From NCBI RefSeq assembly GCF_003061515.1, contig NZ_CP028924.1:3844001-3908000 (forward strand): a stretch of DNA of 64,000 nucleotides, given 5' to 3'. A program made the position numbers and the translations under genes. The stretch is from Colwellia sp. Arc7-D (lineage in GTDB: Bacteria; Pseudomonadota; Gammaproteobacteria; Enterobacterales; Alteromonadaceae). How positions within the stretch are numbered: the stretch's first letter is position 1; each line of letters begins with the position of its first letter. Positions 14,658 to 62,405 of this stretch are shown here, in pieces. Under the pieces are notes generated by a model that saw nothing but the letters and a program-made list of their open reading frames with translations, did not search any database and was not told the DNA's origin.

Positions 14658-15014
14658 TTACTTCTTAATTGGCTTACGAGGACCTTTACGGGTGCGCGCA
14701 TTAGTTTTAGTGCGTTGACCACGTAGAGGAAGACTGCGACGGTGGCGAATACCACGGTAACAACCTAAATCCATAAGACGTTTAATGTTCATTGAAACTT
14801 CACGGCGTAAATCACCTTCTACGGTGTATTTATCCACTTCTGCACGAAGCAAATCAATTTGAGCTTCGTCCAATTCACTGATCTTAGTTGACTCTGCAAT
14901 ACCAGTTGCAACACAAATTGCTTTCGCACGTGTTGCTCCGATACCGAAGATCGCAGTAATGGCGATTACTGCATGCTTACGATCAGGGATGTTAATGCCA
15001 GCGATACGGGCCAC
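14658..15014 (-). CDS. rpsM: 30S ribosomal protein S13, GTG start
   Basis: Head protein of the small subunit that bridges to the large subunit. The protein is 118 residues, beginning [16 protein letters not shown] when read from GTG at 15012-15014. An ATG nine bases upstream is in frame, but the Shine-Dalgarno AGGAG directly abuts it, while the GTG lies 9 bases from it. E. coli rpsM also starts with GTG and the same leader. First gene of the alpha operon; translation is expected to be repressed by S4 through the leader. Confidence 0.97.
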
Positions 15015-15105
15015 TAAACACATCTCCTATTTTTAATTTAAAATTTGCCAGTTGAAAAGCCCGTTAGGATACTCAACCAGCCGCATTTCTTTGCAAATCG
15101 AAGCG
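15012..15105 (-). promoter_or_regulatory. Alpha-operon leader, S4-binding ribosome-binding-site element
   Basis: The rpsM leader contains TTGAGTATCCT, then AACGGGCTTTTCA, then a purine-rich TAGGAG before GTG-GCC. From memory of the E. coli alpha-operon leader this is the same core and order as the S4-binding pseudoknot (Rfam alpha_RBS). Complementary TTGA and TCAA segments flank the ATCC-AACGGG part. The expected role is translational repression of rpsM and following genes when free S4 accumulates. Confidence 0.85.
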
Positions 15106-56461: not shown

Positions 56462-57610
56462 TTATAAAATCGTATACTTACTAAATACTTTATAAAGTTC
56501 AGTACCTTGATTCACACTCGCTGATGCAAAATGCAGAATAGGAATAACACTGTGATCAAAATTGATATAATGCAATGGATCGCCGTCACCATAATTGTCC
56601 ATTCGAAGAATACGCGCTAAAGGTTCGCCTGCAGGAAGCGGTTGCCCGAACTCAGCAAGGTAATCCACCATGCCACCCATGGGCGAATAAAGTGCTTTGT
56701 AATCTTTTAATAAGCAACTATATCTTGTCATCGTTTTTGGCTGATACTGCTGACTATTAATCGCCCCTTGGTATTGTAAATAACTTAAAATACCTAAAGC
56801 GTCTTCATGGGCAACATCTAAATCAATTTGCTCTTGTGAACCCAACTCTACAGTAAAGCTTTCTTTGATAACCGCATTCTCACCTTGATTTTCATCGGTT
56901 TTGGTTATTGGAAAGTCTCGGCCTAATTCTGCAAATTTTAGCTGTAAATACCACCAAGGACAAAAAGTCGCTTCATCAAGTGCGCCATCAAAGCCATTAG
57001 GAATAAATAACACGTGTGGAATATCAAAATATTCAGCACTTGGTCGAGCATAGTCTGGACAATACAAATGTTTACTCGAAATTGGCCCCGTATGCAGATC
57101 TAACACAAGGTCGGCCTCCAGTGCGAGCAATTGCAACTGATAGGCAATTCGTTGACCTGTAGTAATACCATAAACATTGTGATTGAGTTTTTGCGATAAT
57201 TGCTTAACCATTAATGCTTGAAATGCCTGTGCTATTTCGGCATTAGACTGGTTTAAATGTGCCTTAGCAAACGGTTCGATAATACTTTCATCGAAATGAT
57301 ACATACGATTCCAGTTCTCACCGGTAATAGGATCAAATCGACCTAAGGTATATTCACCATTTTTATGATTACAGCCTACAGGATTCGCATAAGGTACTAA
57401 GGTGATACTGCCATTTAATTCAATATGTTTTAATTGTTCCAACAATTGAAAAATAACCGCGTTACCCTGCACTTCTGCGCCATGCATATTTGCTTGAATA
57501 TACACATTAGGCCCCTGACCATTACCTTTAATACGATAAACTGGCACAGTAAGTGTTGCTCCACTGGCCATTTCACCAACATGCATAACTTCTTTACTAA
57601 TTAAATTCAT
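56462..57610 (-). CDS. Succinylglutamate desuccinylase/aspartoacylase-family deacylase
   Basis: Zn-dependent M14-like amidase family that removes acyl groups (succinyl, acetyl) from amino acids. Zinc ligands fit His43 and Glu46 (NMHGAEVQGN) and His173 (LDLHTGP); Glu255 in SFTVELGSQE is the likely catalytic base. 382 residues from ATG at 57610, which follows AAGG; the frame is open upstream into the preceding gene. It ends an operon with a decarboxylase, a DapD-like acyltransferase and a DapA-like aldolase, so it may remove the acyl group that DapD adds, the job DapE does in lysine synthesis. The true substrate is not known. Confidence 0.82.
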   Translation of the reverse strand: MNLISKEVMHVGEMASGATLTVPVYRIKGNGQGPNVYIQANMHGAEVQGNAVIFQLLEQLKHIELNGSITLVPYANPVGCNHKNGEYTLGRFDPITGENWNRMYHFDESIIEPFAKAHLNQSNAEIAQAFQALMVKQLSQKLNHNVYGITTGQRIAYQLQLLALEADLVLDLHTGPISSKHLYCPDYARPSAEYFDIPHVLFIPNGFDGALDEATFCPWWYLQLKFAELGRDFPITKTDENQGENAVIKESFTVELGSQEQIDLDVAHEDALGILSYLQYQGAINSQQYQPKTMTRYSCLLKDYKALYSPMGGMVDYLAEFGQPLPAGEPLARILRMDNYGDGDPLHYINFDHSVIPILHFASASVNQGTELYKVFSKYTIL

Positions 57611-57639
57611 AGTTAACCTTAAGTTAGGCCTTGACCATA

Positions 57640-58902
57640 CTAACGTAAATACCAAGTAGCAGGTTGAGCTGCACGCACTTGCTCTATTTTACCTTGCTGA
57701 AGAACATATTCAGCAGCTATTGGGTGACAAAGAAAAAATGGCATACTTTCAGTAAAACCATAAGCCCCTGCCAAACCAAAAATTAATTGGTCATCAATGC
57801 CAACATCATTGGCTATTGCCAAGGTACCGAGTTTATCTAAACTAGTACAAAGTGGGCCATGTAAATCGAAATAACTCTCGCTTGCTTGAGACTCTCTAAG
57901 CATAGCTACAGGAAAAGGCTGTTCGGTAATCGCAGGGCGAATTAAATGATTAATACCACCCGAAAGTACCAATTGCTGTTGGTCGAAGTTTTCTTTCCGA
58001 TCAACAACAGAGGTAACATAATAGCCCATTTCGGCAACCGCAAAGCGACCTAGCTCCAACCAAAGTTCACTAACGCCAGCTCGGGCTTTTATTTTGGCTA
58101 AATCAGCAACAATATTATCCCAATGCAAGCTTTGGCCTGTTTGCAGATAATCTACACCTAAACCACCACCTAAATCTAAAACCTCTAGCGTCATTTCTAA
58201 TTGTTCTGCTAATGATAACAACGGCGTAACCATTTGTGACCAAAGCTCGAACATGCGTTCATTACTTAGCATATTCCCCCATTGGAATATATGTAAGCCG
58301 TTAATGTTTAAGGCTAAAAAATCACTTACTTTGATGGTTTGCCATTCTTGGCACGATAAACCAAAGGCGGTTACTTCATTACCGCCTAATGGATTTTTCT
58401 CACCTTCATCCCACTGGAGCTGAACTCTTAATAATACTTGCGGTCGACAAGACAACTCAGTCGCAGCTTCATTTAGCCATTGCAATTGGTTCAAGCTCTC
58501 AACAACAAAGGTACGAACCCCTTGTGTTAAAAACGCTTTCATTTGCTGTTTCGACTTTGCTGGTCCGGTATTAAGAATACGCTCAGCCTGCACATTTTGC
58601 GCAAGCACTTGTGTGAGTTCTCCTTGACTGGCAACGTCAAAATTAAAACCTTGCTGAGCTAACGTCGTGATCACACGTGACAATGGGTTTGCTTTCACTG
58701 CAAACCACAGTTTAATCACATCTTGTTGCATCAACGTTGACAAATGCTGTGCTAGATAATCTAAATCGTAAAGAAAAAATCCCACTTCATCTTGATCAAC
58801 CTCAGCGCCATTTTTCAGTGCGTTACGATGTTCGTTCAGGGGTTGAATTACAGACGGTCTTAGCCAATTTGGCCGAGTTGCTGTGTTTAACATTGCAGTC
58901 AT
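57640..58902 (-). CDS. Fold-type III PLP decarboxylase (LysA-like)
   Basis: Alanine-racemase-fold PLP decarboxylase related to diaminopimelate decarboxylase. The PLP Lys is about residue 70 (WFAVKANPL), the phosphate loop is LDLGGGLGVDY, and the dimer-site Cys-Asp motif is GPLCTSLDKLG. The usual HIGS/HVGS motif reads HIFQWGN and EPGR reads ELGR, so it is closer to the specialised branch (siderophore or exosortase-associated decarboxylases) than to housekeeping LysA. AGGA lies 7 bases before the ATG and overlaps the DapD-like stop region; gap 8 bases. Substrate uncertain. Confidence 0.82.
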   Translation of the reverse strand: MTAMLNTATRPNWLRPSVIQPLNEHRNALKNGAEVDQDEVGFFLYDLDYLAQHLSTLMQQDVIKLWFAVKANPLSRVITTLAQQGFNFDVASQGELTQVLAQNVQAERILNTGPAKSKQQMKAFLTQGVRTFVVESLNQLQWLNEAATELSCRPQVLLRVQLQWDEGEKNPLGGNEVTAFGLSCQEWQTIKVSDFLALNINGLHIFQWGNMLSNERMFELWSQMVTPLLSLAEQLEMTLEVLDLGGGLGVDYLQTGQSLHWDNIVADLAKIKARAGVSELWLELGRFAVAEMGYYVTSVVDRKENFDQQQLVLSGGINHLIRPAITEQPFPVAMLRESQASESYFDLHGPLCTSLDKLGTLAIANDVGIDDQLIFGLAGAYGFTESMPFFLCHPIAAEYVLQQGKIEQVRAAQPATWYLR

Positions 58903-58910
58903 TTTTTTTC

Positions 58911-59660
58911 CTAGCGCAGCACAGATTCAAGTTCTAAAGCGGCATTACTTTTTTCATCACGATATTTAATAATTATCGCACAGGCCATATTCAATCCTTG
59001 CTCTTCCGCCCAAGCACCTTTAACAGGTCGCGTACCCGGAACCACAACCGCATTTTCAGGAATGTCAGCGCCTTTCTCTAGCATGATGTTATTAACACAG
59101 TCATAAACTGGCACCGATGCAGACAAAGAAACACCTGGCGCTAATACCGCACCTTTTTTCACAACAATACCTTCAACAATAATCACGCCAGCACTTAAAA
59201 AGGCATTATCTTCAATAATCACTGGGCTAGCACCAATAGGCTCAAGTACACCACCAATTTGCACAGCGGCAGACACATGCACATTTTTACCTATTTGTGC
59301 ACATGAACCAATTAATGCGTGGCTATCAACCATAGTACCAGTATCAACAAAGGCACCAACATTAATATAGGCAGGCGGCATAATAATAACGCCCGGCGCT
59401 ACATAAGCACCTCGACGAACCGATGATCCACCCGGTACCATTCTCACTTTATCAGCAACAACAAATTCACGTGCGGGTAGGTTATGCTTATCAACAAAAC
59501 CGCGATAAGCACCGTCAAATTCAATATTTTCTCCGGCTTTAAATGCCGCTAGTATTGCTTCTTTGACGTTGGTATTAACTTGCCAAGTACCATCGCTATT
59601 TTGTTGTGCTGCACGTGTTTTGCCTGTTTCTAAATCTGTTAATGTTTGTTGCCAAGTCAT
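58911..59660 (-). CDS. DapD-like tetrahydrodipicolinate N-acyltransferase
   Basis: Left-handed beta-helix acyltransferase. DapD succinylates tetrahydrodipicolinate using succinyl-CoA. Shared motifs are VRRGAYVAPGVIIMPPAYIN, VDTGTMVDSHALIGSCAQIG and GGVLEPIGASPVIIEDNAFL. At 249 residues it is shorter than E. coli DapD (274), with a reduced N-terminal domain, and differs in the C-terminal hexapeptide turns (ISMGVYIG is LAPGVSLSAS here). The start overlaps the DapA-like stop (ATGA). It is likely a specialised paralogue, since housekeeping dapD normally lies near glnD and map. Acyl donor and acceptor are not certain. Confidence 0.85.
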   Translation of the reverse strand: MTWQQTLTDLETGKTRAAQQNSDGTWQVNTNVKEAILAAFKAGENIEFDGAYRGFVDKHNLPAREFVVADKVRMVPGGSSVRRGAYVAPGVIIMPPAYINVGAFVDTGTMVDSHALIGSCAQIGKNVHVSAAVQIGGVLEPIGASPVIIEDNAFLSAGVIIVEGIVVKKGAVLAPGVSLSASVPVYDCVNNIMLEKGADIPENAVVVPGTRPVKGAWAEEQGLNMACAIIIKYRDEKSNAALELESVLR

Positions 59661-60667
59661 GAATTTACTTCTCGAAGGTTAGTTGATGTTAAATAATGAT
59701 GTTGATCAGCACTTTCAGTGCTTTTAATCGTGTGAGCATGCGCTAAAGGGTTACTACTGTTAGCCTCTAACCATTGCTGAATTTTTTGATGAATATCTTG
59801 TAGGCCATGTTGCTCAGAAATTTCTTCATGGCATAAGGGTAAGCGCAGTTTTGCAGTACTGATTATGTTCAAATCAGCCATTAAAACTTTTACCGGTATT
59901 GGACTTGCGACCTGAAATAATGCTGCAATCGCTTTATGCCAAAGCGGAAACAGCCCTTCATTTTGATAAGCTAACGCCATTGCTACGTACTGTCGAGTAG
60001 CCACTGGCCATACGTTTGCACAAACTGATATCAAGCCTTTAACATTAACGCCGGCAAGATAAGGCATCATGGCATCTTCGCCACTATATATTTCAATGTG
60101 TGGACAATGTTCTTTGTAGGCAAGTAACTTATTAAGATCGCCACTGGCTTCTTTTAACGCCCAGCAATTTTTATGGTTTTGAAGTTGTTGTATGGTAGAT
60201 ATCGCGACTTCAACACTGCTGCGCGAAGGCACGTTATAAAGCATACAAGGGAAATTAGCGGCATCCAGTAGGCTTTTAAACCATAACGTTTGCCCGACAG
60301 GACCTGGTTTTGCATATATTGGACTACCGAGTAAATATGCATCTATCGGTAAGGTATTGCATTGTTCTATCCAGGCAAGTTGCTCGTTAAGGTTATAACC
60401 TCCAACAGCAACCATAATTGGCACTTGCAAGGGCATAGCACAAACGTATTCAACAATACTTAAATGTTCTTTAGCCGTTAGGGCAAGGCCTTCACCTGTA
60501 CTGCCTAGAAGTAAAATGCCATTTTTAGCAGCGTTTTGCTGTAAAACAAGTTTACGCAAACTGTCAAAGTCAATGTCATCATTGTCAAAAAGAGGGGTTA
60601 CTAGGGCTGTCCAAACCAAAGGCCGGTCAGTTAATAACTGATTTTCTATAGAATTATTTTGATTCAT
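59657..60667 (-). CDS. DapA-like dihydrodipicolinate synthase-family aldolase
   Basis: Class I aldolase that condenses pyruvate with an aldehyde. Motifs: GSTGEGLAL (pyruvate carboxylate site), Tyr144 in YNVPSRSS, and the Schiff-base Lys172 in ALKEASGD (numbering from ATG at 60667, 336 residues). The frame is open to a TTG at 60718, but GAGAG lies just ahead of this ATG. It has a C-terminal extension of about 30 polar residues absent from E. coli DapA. First gene of the four-gene operon and preceded by a structured leader. Typical DapA substrates (aspartate semialdehyde) are assumed, not shown. Confidence 0.85.
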   Translation of the reverse strand: MNQNNSIENQLLTDRPLVWTALVTPLFDNDDIDFDSLRKLVLQQNAAKNGILLLGSTGEGLALTAKEHLSIVEYVCAMPLQVPIMVAVGGYNLNEQLAWIEQCNTLPIDAYLLGSPIYAKPGPVGQTLWFKSLLDAANFPCMLYNVPSRSSVEVAISTIQQLQNHKNCWALKEASGDLNKLLAYKEHCPHIEIYSGEDAMMPYLAGVNVKGLISVCANVWPVATRQYVAMALAYQNEGLFPLWHKAIAALFQVASPIPVKVLMADLNIISTAKLRLPLCHEEISEQHGLQDIHQKIQQWLEANSSNPLAHAHTIKSTESADQHHYLTSTNLREVNS

Positions 60668-60805
60668 TTCTCTCGAACTCTTGTCGTTCGGAGAACTTTT
60701 AGGCGCTTGTATAGACAAAATTTCAAGGATGAAACTTGGCCTTTACAAAGGCCAGAAGCTCTCCACCTATAAGGTGACAGTTGCAAGGATTCAACCTCAT
60801 ATTAA
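60668..60805 (-). promoter_or_regulatory. Structured leader ahead of the DapA-like operon
   Basis: Five stems lie in line: GTTG/CAAC (60780-60795), CACCT/AGGTG (60764-60776), TGGCCTT/AAGGCCA (60737-60754), TTTCA/TGAAA (60721-60734) and, at the ribosome binding site, two that exclude each other: GTTC-TCC-GAAC (60686-60696) or TCTC-CGAAC with GTTCG-AGAGA (60671-60694), the latter burying the GAGAG before ATG 60667. The loops of three stems carry TCC on the minus strand, hence GGA on the plus strand. This could be a cis-acting switch or, read on the plus strand, a CsrA-binding RNA. No match to a known riboswitch was recognised. Confidence 0.5.
60723..60800 (-). CDS. Possible 25-residue leader peptide
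   Basis: An ATG at 60800 opens 25 codons (start MRLNPCNCHLIGG, end AKFHP) to TGA at 60723-60725, wholly inside the structured leader and just before the DapA-like gene. Features are a CNC motif at residues 6-8 and a hydrophobic middle (LLAFV). No strong ribosome binding site precedes it. It could be a control peptide, a product precursor, or chance. Confidence 0.25.
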   Translation of the reverse strand: MRLNPCNCHLIGGELLAFVKAKFHP

Positions 60806-61106
60806 ACGAACTAATTTATAGCCCGTAAAATAAAAAATTTAATTGCTATCTAAAAACAATTAAGCTTTTACAACCGACAATTACATCATCAAAAATATAA
60901 TTATCTCGGCGTTATACCCCCTCATTATTACTCAATAGAGTTTGATCTCTTCACAATAACTACCTGATTAACGCGCCTCTTCTGGCCCTTTCATCGTTGC
61001 TATTAATACTTACATATCAATAGCACAGGAATAAGGGACTGCAATATTAAAACATTTAAATATAAGGGCAGTCAATAGACGTCTAAACGTATATTGACAA
61101 TTACTA
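60806..61106. other. AT-rich spacer with a 28-base near-palindrome
   Basis: Mostly featureless. A TTAATTG/CAATTAA inverted repeat lies at about 60839-60865, and a 28-base near-palindrome (61071-61098, GTCAATA...TATTGAC with inner ACGT/ACGT and two mismatched pairs) sits 9 bases beyond the stop of the next gene. The latter may be a terminator stem or an operator. No promoter for the DapA-like operon is clear; TATAAA about 25 bases before 60800 is possible. Confidence 0.5.
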
Positions 61107-62405
61107 CTAACTATTTATTTTTACTAAGTTTATTTCTTTTTCTAATACTAAAATTCTATCTTGGCCCCAATAACTACTCTTGCCATAACTAAAACTGGGT
61201 ACGCCCCAAAGGTTTAAGTTAGTCAATTCAACTTGGTTTAAGTCTGCCCATTGCTGCCAATCGTGTTGCTCTTGGTATCCATACCCATCCTCAACATTTA
61301 AAGATAAGTCTTTATAAATAGTCTCAATATGCTCAGGATTAGCTAAATCAATACCATTAACATAAATAGCCTTGAAACACGCGAGCATATACTCAAGCGC
61401 TTTGCCTTGCTGCTGAGCCCATGCAAATAAACGATATGCATTCATAACTCCAACCCCGAGAGGATCGGTAAAGCCATTAAATTCAATACCTAATTTTTTA
61501 GCTTCGCGCAAAGCATCAAGATAAATATATTTCTGCTTAACGAGCGGCATAGCCGCCCCTCGCATTAAAAGCGGTAAAACAGGTTTTATTACTAATTCTA
61601 TTTTATATTGTCCTGCTAAATTAATGGCTTGCACAAAACCCAAATAAGAATAAGGACTACGTAAAGACAAATATATCACCAAAGGCTCAGACACTGCATT
61701 GGCTGGTTGAGCAGCATTAATATCAACTATTTTATGTGGAAAATTTTGTTGATTAACAGTTTGGTTCAATTGGTTTTTTCTCATTAACGCTTCAGTTAAA
61801 TCATCTACTAAGGCAAGTTTTTTTAGCATGTTTTCAAAATGATATAACCTTTCAACGCCAACATACCAACTGCCAGCAAACAAAATACTTGCTGGCGCAT
61901 AATGCCCTTTGGCTTTTAAACGCGTTTGGTTTTTAACTTGGTGATTTATCGTGGGTGTTGAGGTTTGAAAATGCTCGCTAAATTGATTTCCCCAGGTATT
62001 TATAAAAATTTGTTCAGCATTGGCAATATTATTTACTTTGAACTGCCAAATCTGTTGACCTGTTGTTAAAGAAGCAGAAGTAGGCTCATCTTTGATGTCA
62101 ACAAGTTGATATTTTTCGGCTATTAAATTAGCGTCTTTAATCGCCCATTGTCGATAAAGTTTTGGGCAAATGGTAATACCGGGTAACGTTCCCCAGATAA
62201 AAAGTACTTTAAAAGTAAGGTGATAATTTACCGCTAATCGAGATAGCATTTGCACTAACATAAAGCTATGCGGGTCATTTAGTGAAAGGTAAACTTCAGC
62301 TTGTGCTTTTTGGCCTAAAAATCGCCCAATTAAAAAATAACGAAAAACCAGTGCTTTTGCTCGACAATGACTTTGAAGCCATTTTATTTTTAGTCGCAAT
62401 AACAT
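61107..62405 (-). CDS. Duplicated DsbA/HCCA-isomerase-fold protein
   Basis: 432 residues with two thioredoxin-like DsbA-family halves, similar to 2-hydroxychromene-2-carboxylate isomerase or kappa-class GST. The C-terminal half (about 230-425) is better kept: YLSLRSPYSYLGFVQAINLA opens the fold and LWGVPSFSYGKSSYWGQDRI closes it, with the cis-Pro. The N-terminal half starts from EVYLSLNDPHSFMLVQMLSR. No CxxC pair is present, so it is not a disulfide oxidoreductase. The substrate is unknown. It is upstream of the DapA-like operon on the same strand, 390 bases away. Confidence 0.8.
   Translation of the reverse strand: MLLRLKIKWLQSHCRAKALVFRYFLIGRFLGQKAQAEVYLSLNDPHSFMLVQMLSRLAVNYHLTFKVLFIWGTLPGITICPKLYRQWAIKDANLIAEKYQLVDIKDEPTSASLTTGQQIWQFKVNNIANAEQIFINTWGNQFSEHFQTSTPTINHQVKNQTRLKAKGHYAPASILFAGSWYVGVERLYHFENMLKKLALVDDLTEALMRKNQLNQTVNQQNFPHKIVDINAAQPANAVSEPLVIYLSLRSPYSYLGFVQAINLAGQYKIELVIKPVLPLLMRGAAMPLVKQKYIYLDALREAKKLGIEFNGFTDPLGVGVMNAYRLFAWAQQQGKALEYMLACFKAIYVNGIDLANPEHIETIYKDLSLNVEDGYGYQEQHDWQQWADLNQVELTNLNLWGVPSFSYGKSSYWGQDRILVLEKEINLVKINS

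Follow-up and report, generated by a model that had tools for sequence, protein, structure and literature searches.

A lysine-riboswitch operon in Colwellia sp. Arc7-D and a proposed rearranged acyl-diaminopimelate route to lysine

In this study we describe an operon of four genes preceded by a lysine riboswitch in Colwellia sp. Arc7-D. It lies in a stretch of 64,000 nucleotides (hereafter the window; contig NZ_CP028924.1, positions 3,844,001 to 3,908,000) taken from a complete chromosome of 4.3 Mb. The operon encodes a second 4-hydroxy-tetrahydrodipicolinate synthase (DapA2), a DapD-like acyltransferase (DapD2), a pyridoxal phosphate (PLP)-dependent decarboxylase related to LysA (LysAx) and a zinc deacylase of the AstE/AspA type. 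We propose from sequence comparison, with a probability of roughly 0.55, that this lysine-repressed operon runs a rearranged acyl-diaminopimelate (acyl-DAP) route to lysine. The pairing of the riboswitch with the operon is in itself not new, as passages of a 2017 survey already present it (PMC5584792). The features, all on the minus strand, are the following:

56462..57610, minus: AstE/AspA-type zinc deacylase, predicted to convert N2-acyl-lysine to lysine (PF24827, 97.1 bits)
57640..58902, minus: lysAx, PLP decarboxylase, predicted substrate N-acyl-LL-diaminopimelate (residue counts; SbnH and BtrK nearest)
58911..59660, minus: dapD2, DapD-like acyltransferase with a short N-terminus (NF008808, 297.9 bits, cut-off 204)
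59657..60667, minus: dapA2, second copy of 4-hydroxy-tetrahydrodipicolinate synthase (TIGR00674, 246.2 bits, cut-off 206.15)
60669..60764, minus: expression platform (from RNA folds; switching is predicted)
60748..60989, minus: lysine riboswitch aptamer RF00168 (cmscan, 82.7 bits)

The four open reading frames (ORFs) are tightly packed, with an overlap of 4 bases between dapA2 and dapD2, a gap of 8 bases between dapD2 and lysAx and one of 29 between lysAx and the deacylase gene. A sequence-only reading of this DNA had described such packing for genes of the DapA, DapD, LysA and deacylase families, and in this respect its gene map holds. Some details are corrected here: the dapA2 ORF opens with a TTG at 60718 and the preferred start is the ATG at 60667, and a riboswitch had been missed. 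Likewise, the deacylase ORF opens with a TTG at 57655 and its likely start is the ATG at 57610. As that reading also stated, neither dapB nor an aminotransferase gene nor dapF is found in the window's operon. The same chromosome carries separate housekeeping genes: a second dapA, dapD (adjoining glnD-like and map-like genes), a dapE that scores over its cut-off, lysA followed by dapF, and lysC, which lies downstream of a lysine riboswitch of its own (glnD, map, lysC and dapF were named by eye from the translations). Because these copies are separate, the operon is an addition and not the housekeeping set. The possibility that it holds the only dapA, dapD and lysA was looked for, further copies of all three were found, and a housekeeping-only reading is rejected in favor of the specialised set suggested earlier.

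Lysine riboswitch and conserved gene order

Directly before dapA2, Rfam's own model finds the aptamer with an E-value of 4.1e-20, far over the gathering cut-off of 30 bits. This independent detection is accompanied by a score of 136 bits with R1, a covariance model that we built from 20 copies, which include the window copy and several whose genomes recur in the set of 80 loci described below. Most columns of the aptamer core are invariant across the 20 aligned copies, and the core aligns to the Rfam consensus. The 80 bases between the aptamer and the likely start codon can form two mutually exclusive folds. In one of them, 60694-60686 pairs with 60678-60669 and masks the ribosome-binding stretch before the ATG at 60667 (106-nucleotide stretch, z -5.46). 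In the second, nucleotides 60764-60756, at the 3' end of the aptamer, pair with the 5' arm of the first hairpin (60698-60690; 136-nucleotide stretch, z -4.31). The shortest stretch, of 81 nucleotides, folds differently (z -2.29). The two exclusive folds predict that high lysine shuts off translation of the operon.

A contig scan found 285 relatives, of which 80 loci were kept; they belong to Colwellia, Cognaticolwellia, Thalassotalea, Thalassomonas, Litorilituus and Pseudoalteromonas, together with unassigned and uncultured relatives. Ahead of the operon, R1 finds a riboswitch in 78 of the 80 loci, the misses being L162 and L165, and this count supersedes the 49 of 80 obtained by an earlier regular-expression search. 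The order dapD2-lysAx-deacylase is kept in 80/80 loci, so that chance packing is rejected. When all ORFs of these loci were clustered, dapD2, lysAx and the deacylase were the only families found in every one of them; dapA2 was present in 58, and no ORF matched dapF. Given the riboswitch in 78 loci and the gene order in all 80, the operon has the look of a lysine supply unit repressed by lysine, not of a tabtoxin-like cluster.

A second sample consisted of 394 genomes of the order. LysAx was found in 21 (E 1e-60) and the deacylase in 67 (E 1e-20), and both occur together in 19 of the 21 LysAx-bearing genomes. The two exceptions are G165, where the contig ends inside lysAx, and G380, which is without the deacylase at E 1e-20. 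By coordinates, a riboswitch lies beside the gene row in 17 of these 21; those without are G194 and G357 (contigs identical to L165 and L162, respectively), G029 and G380.

Two variants extend the row. All seven fetched genomes of family f16 carry lysC-dapA2-dapD2-lysAx-deacylase, and G029 carries dapB-like-dapD2-lysAx-deacylase (L071, 1002-4857), where the dapB match of 106.7 bits falls short of its cut-off (122 bits). The G029 row is flanked by mgtE-, pmbA- and yjgA-like genes, which also flank the window's operon. Between them, the f16 and G029 rows add aspartate-to-lysine steps to the gene row. In G029, which is 92% complete, there was no match to dapE or to housekeeping dapD.

Residues of the four enzymes

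DapA2 scores over the equivalog cut-off of its family. DapD2 passes NF008808 but stays under TIGR00965 (190.1 versus 375.4 bits), and measures 249 residues against 276 in housekeeping DapD, owing to a short N-terminus. Asp141 and the GAR-S-E189 stretch of DapD presumably have functional roles. Compared with housekeeping DapD, Asp141 is kept in all 99 DapD2 rows (window copy included), and in the same 99 rows Arg187 is replaced by Gly and Glu189 by Val or Ile. The loss of both Arg187 and Glu189 suggests a different acyl donor, so that the acyl group may not be succinyl, acetyl being a possibility. The residues given for Pseudomonas aeruginosa DapD in passages of PMC3281039 could not be mapped onto DapD2, as the two are of different DapD types.

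LysAx, too, departs from its housekeeping counterpart. With TIGR01048, the LysA model, it scores 192.6 bits, under the cut-off of 297.9, versus 554.9 bits for LysA1 of the same genome. When solved structures are ranked by a LysAx profile, SbnH (188.4 bits) and BtrK (164.7 bits) precede the best DAP decarboxylase (151.6 bits); LysA1 gives the reverse ranking, with DAP decarboxylases first. According to passages of PMC7857480, SbnH (structure 6knk) decarboxylates N-citryl-2,3-diaminopropionate, and the substrate of BtrK is carrier-bound glutamate. We aligned 100 LysAx rows, made up of the window, 19 sampled genomes and the 80 loci, with at least five genomes in both sets, so that the rows are not all independent. 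Arg286 and Arg322, at the distal-carboxylate positions, and Thr353 are found in 100/100 rows, where LysA1 has Arg, Arg and Glu. These positions were mapped to the Thermotoga maritima enzyme by motifs and by the equal 36-residue spacing between the arginines, not by structure alignment. In the T. maritima DAP decarboxylase, as described in passages of PMC8277567, the arginines that bind the distal carboxylate are Arg249 and Arg285, and the distal amine is bound by Glu315; an E315T mutant lost most of its DAP activity and preferred 2-aminopimelate. The threonine of LysAx belongs to a Cys352-Thr353 pair, and SbnH and BtrK likewise have Cys-Thr at this loop. In addition, the lid stretch of LysA1, THPYISTG, is replaced in LysAx. 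An ordinary LysA is therefore rejected, on the score under the TIGR01048 cut-off and on the threonine that takes the place of the amine-binding glutamate.

The short DapD N-terminus and the deviating motifs singled out by the sequence-only reading are present as stated; in the 100 LysAx rows, HIFQWGN varies at its isoleucine alone (present in 98 of 100) and ELGR is invariant. The nearest LysAx among the matches listed is that of Colwellia polaris, with 90% identity. The predicted structure of LysAx (mean predicted local distance difference test score 84.6) has the fold common to all these enzymes, with a tie between DAP decarboxylases and SbnH when compared with solved structures, and does not discriminate between them.

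The pocket of LysAx seems to have kept the carboxylate grip and given up the amine grip, which fits a substrate with a capped distal amine, such as DapD makes possible. Kinship with L-specific enzymes and the lost lid point, more weakly, to action on an L-centre. This is tempered by the E315T mutant of the T. maritima enzyme, which stayed D-specific (passages of PMC8277567).

The deacylase matches the AstE/AspA catalytic domain well over the cut-off of 25 bits, and there is no match to the succinylglutamate desuccinylase model TIGR03242 (AstE) at E 0.001. Its nearest solved relatives, over nearly the full length, are 3fmc (414.6 bits) and 3lwu (392.1 bits), both named only putative AstE/AspA; their molecule names state no substrate, and we know of no function for either. 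His43, Glu46, His173 and Glu255, which we take to be zinc-binding and catalytic residues of the family, are kept in at least 97% of 117 rows. The deacylase of L068 (f6) is near-identical to 3fmc, whose source we take to be Shewanella, and so points to that genus. The earlier idea that this enzyme replaces a lost DapE did not hold, as a proteobacterial-type dapE scores over its cut-off in 76 of the 78 genomes tested. The gene is also found in other arrangements. In L068, L074, L083, L097, L098 and L099 a riboswitch is followed by lysC and then directly by the deacylase, without dapD2 or lysAx. In L069, L080-L082 and L100-L104 the deacylase stands alone, in genomes without a lysine riboswitch match, and no riboswitch lies beside the deacylase in the three deacylase-bearing f6/g46 genomes. 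The f6 loci L106 and L108 have a second lysine riboswitch, before an NhaC-like transporter gene (named by eye).

Proposed route and its alternatives

The route, each catalytic step of which we infer from the observed genes, their order, the riboswitch and the residue changes, would proceed as follows. DapA2 would join aspartate semialdehyde and pyruvate, feeding the pathway, and housekeeping DapB would reduce the product to tetrahydrodipicolinate. DapD2 would then acylate the amino group, with succinyl or acetyl, and a housekeeping aminotransferase would yield N-acyl-LL-DAP. With the far carboxylate held by its two arginines, LysAx would decarboxylate the free L-centre to N2-acyl-L-lysine, from which the AstE/AspA-type deacylase would remove the cap to release L-lysine. 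DapE, DapF and meso-DAP would be bypassed, so that more lysine could be made at no cost to the cell-wall precursor, and at high lysine the riboswitch would shut translation. The chances are about even that LysAx is the first N-acyl-LL-diaminopimelate decarboxylase, with N2-acyl-lysine deprotected last by an AstE/AspA-type enzyme and with no part for DapE, DapF or meso-DAP. Our literature searches, which covered open-licence PubMed Central papers, found neither an N-acyl-DAP decarboxylase nor a lysine route that deacylates last.

Bacteria that rely on the DAP pathway supply both lysine and cell-wall synthesis from a single meso-DAP pool. If the proposal is correct, the operon splits the two demands and lysine becomes tunable by the riboswitch independently of peptidoglycan. 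It would also add an enzyme step that our literature searches did not find and a new branch order of lysine biosynthesis, it would explain the second lysine-controlled gene set in many Colwelliaceae and Pseudoalteromonas, and the annotations 'lysA' and 'dapD' of these copies would name the wrong substrate.

Several points weigh against this route, among them that the acyl group could be either succinyl or acetyl. A natural loss of lysA was sought in 78 genomes, and housekeeping lysA was over the cut-off in 77, the exception being the incomplete G096; there is thus no loss showing that the operon suffices. In a tree of 59 of the 117 rows (one in four of the 80 loci; the lysC-linked G078 left out), midpoint-rooted for drawing only, deacylases unaccompanied by dapD2-lysAx make up a lysC-linked clade and a stand-alone clade, and G072 has another. 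By coordinates, a riboswitch lies 1.46-1.61 kb upstream of the deacylase, on the same strand, in all 26 deacylase-bearing f6/g24 genomes, and in the six that were fetched lysC lies between the two. Given this riboswitch and the intervening lysC, the f6/g24 deacylase probably serves lysine supply without LysAx.

A further point of this kind comes from G380 (L066) and G399 (L214), where dapD2 and lysAx lie side by side without this deacylase, with 84-86% identity to the window copies (for LysAx, measured in G380). In the other 17 of 19 genomes of their genus, neither DapD type, dapD2 or housekeeping, was matched (E 1e-12), and a dapE match is missing from G380 at E 1e-30. In favor of the route, the presence of the pair in a genus otherwise without a DapD match, and without a dapE match in G380, ties dapD2 and lysAx together, and a recent transfer is probable. 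Only G380 and G399 among the 19 have a split PF24827 match; the one in G380 is, at 336.8 bits, a canonical AstE, which could uncap a succinyl product. Both genomes look like close relatives and are counted as one event.

The alternative that survives best, unlikely as we consider it, is that the operon provides regulated isozymes of the succinylase pathway. The deacylase would be an additional, lysine-repressed desuccinylase of N-succinyl-DAP, LysAx would be an additional decarboxylase of meso-DAP, and the meso-DAP would come from housekeeping DapF. A lysine riboswitch would suit any lysine gene, and the f6/g24 arrangement, with the deacylase and lysC under a riboswitch and no LysAx, is one in which an extra desuccinylase would lift flux. 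However, the distal-amine glutamate is replaced by threonine in every LysAx row, a change after which, according to passages of PMC8277567, the T. maritima enzyme retained little of its activity on DAP. The lost lid, the lack of any dapF match in the 80 loci and the dapE already present in nearly all genomes tested also argue against isozymes.

Somewhat less probable is a specialised product, that is, an N-acyl-lysine or a tabtoxin-like metabolite derived from lysine or DAP, with the deacylase as maturation step. Passages of PMC3927611 describe TabA (LysA-like) and TabB (DapD-like) in the tabtoxin cluster and report that tabA failed to complement an Escherichia coli lysA mutant, and the dapD2-lysAx pair of G380 and G399, kept without this deacylase, would be compatible with such a role. 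Against it stand the riboswitch in 78 of 80 loci, lysC in the f16 gene row and the fact that no ORF family besides dapD2, lysAx and the deacylase is common to the 80 loci. The sequence-only reading had left the choice between a lysine- or DAP-like metabolite and a shortened lysine route; the latter is the better of the two, given the riboswitch count and lysC in seven of seven f16 rows. Its observation is thus confirmed and its interpretation partly supported. Least probable of all is that the deacylase mainly salvages acylated lysine, with dapA2-dapD2-lysAx as an incidental feeder or serving another acyl-amino acid: it is suited by deacylases that lack dapD2-lysAx and fall in three or more parts of the tree, but the operon arrangement recurs across f4, f16, Colwelliaceae and Pseudoalteromonas, and gene loss is an equally good or better explanation of the solitary copies.

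Two other features were noted in the window. Just upstream of the riboswitch, 61107-62405 on the minus strand encodes a protein of 432 residues whose second half holds a DSBA-like domain; 23 of the 80 loci have a relative near the operon. At 14982-15091 (minus strand) RF00140, the Alpha operon ribosome-binding site, is matched with 85.3 bits; this is an ordinary element in the control of ribosomal proteins.

Comparison with known systems

The proposed route resembles the acyl-DAP (succinylase or acetylase) pathway in its DapA and DapD families, N-acyl intermediate, PLP decarboxylase, deacylase and riboswitch control. It differs in that the predicted decarboxylation precedes deacylation, in the AstE/AspA-type enzyme in place of DapE and in the lack of dapF.

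As for the operon itself, passages of PMC5584792 give 'dapA-dapD-lysA-hypothetical1-hypothetical2' as a riboswitch operon of Pseudoalteromonas haloplanktis; for Colwellia psychrerythraea they report a riboswitch ahead of dapD. We found riboswitch-dapA2-dapD2-lysAx-deacylase followed by a further ORF in P. haloplanktis ATCC 14393 (L193), so that the published operon is very likely the same one, although the strain of the paper may differ from ours. The survey lists it as lysine genes; the word 'desuccinylase' is absent from its main text, and its passages hold no discussion of an altered decarboxylase. The ORF after the deacylase in Pseudoalteromonas resembles, by eye only, an outer-membrane phospholipase.

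SbnH, BtrK, FigC/FslC, AcsE and MccE are decarboxylases of the alanine-racemase fold whose substrates are conjugated at the far end (passages of PMC7857480). This group serves siderophores, butirosin or microcin, whereas LysAx belongs to a lysine-riboswitch operon. Unlike the SbnH/BtrK group, LysAx keeps the arginine of the DAP-carboxylate position, in an Arg-Pro motif, and with the FslC model it scores 52.7 bits, far below the cut-off of 500.

The tabtoxin cluster, likened here by its description in passages of PMC3927611, also has a LysA-like and DapD-like pair off the lysine pathway. Here, in contrast, no conserved tailoring gene is found across the 80 loci and a lysine riboswitch is present instead. 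Since the riboswitch is there and no other gene is common to these loci, a tabtoxin-like product of this operon is unlikely. Conversely, as tabA did not complement E. coli lysA, the tabtoxin cluster may use the same trick as proposed for LysAx.

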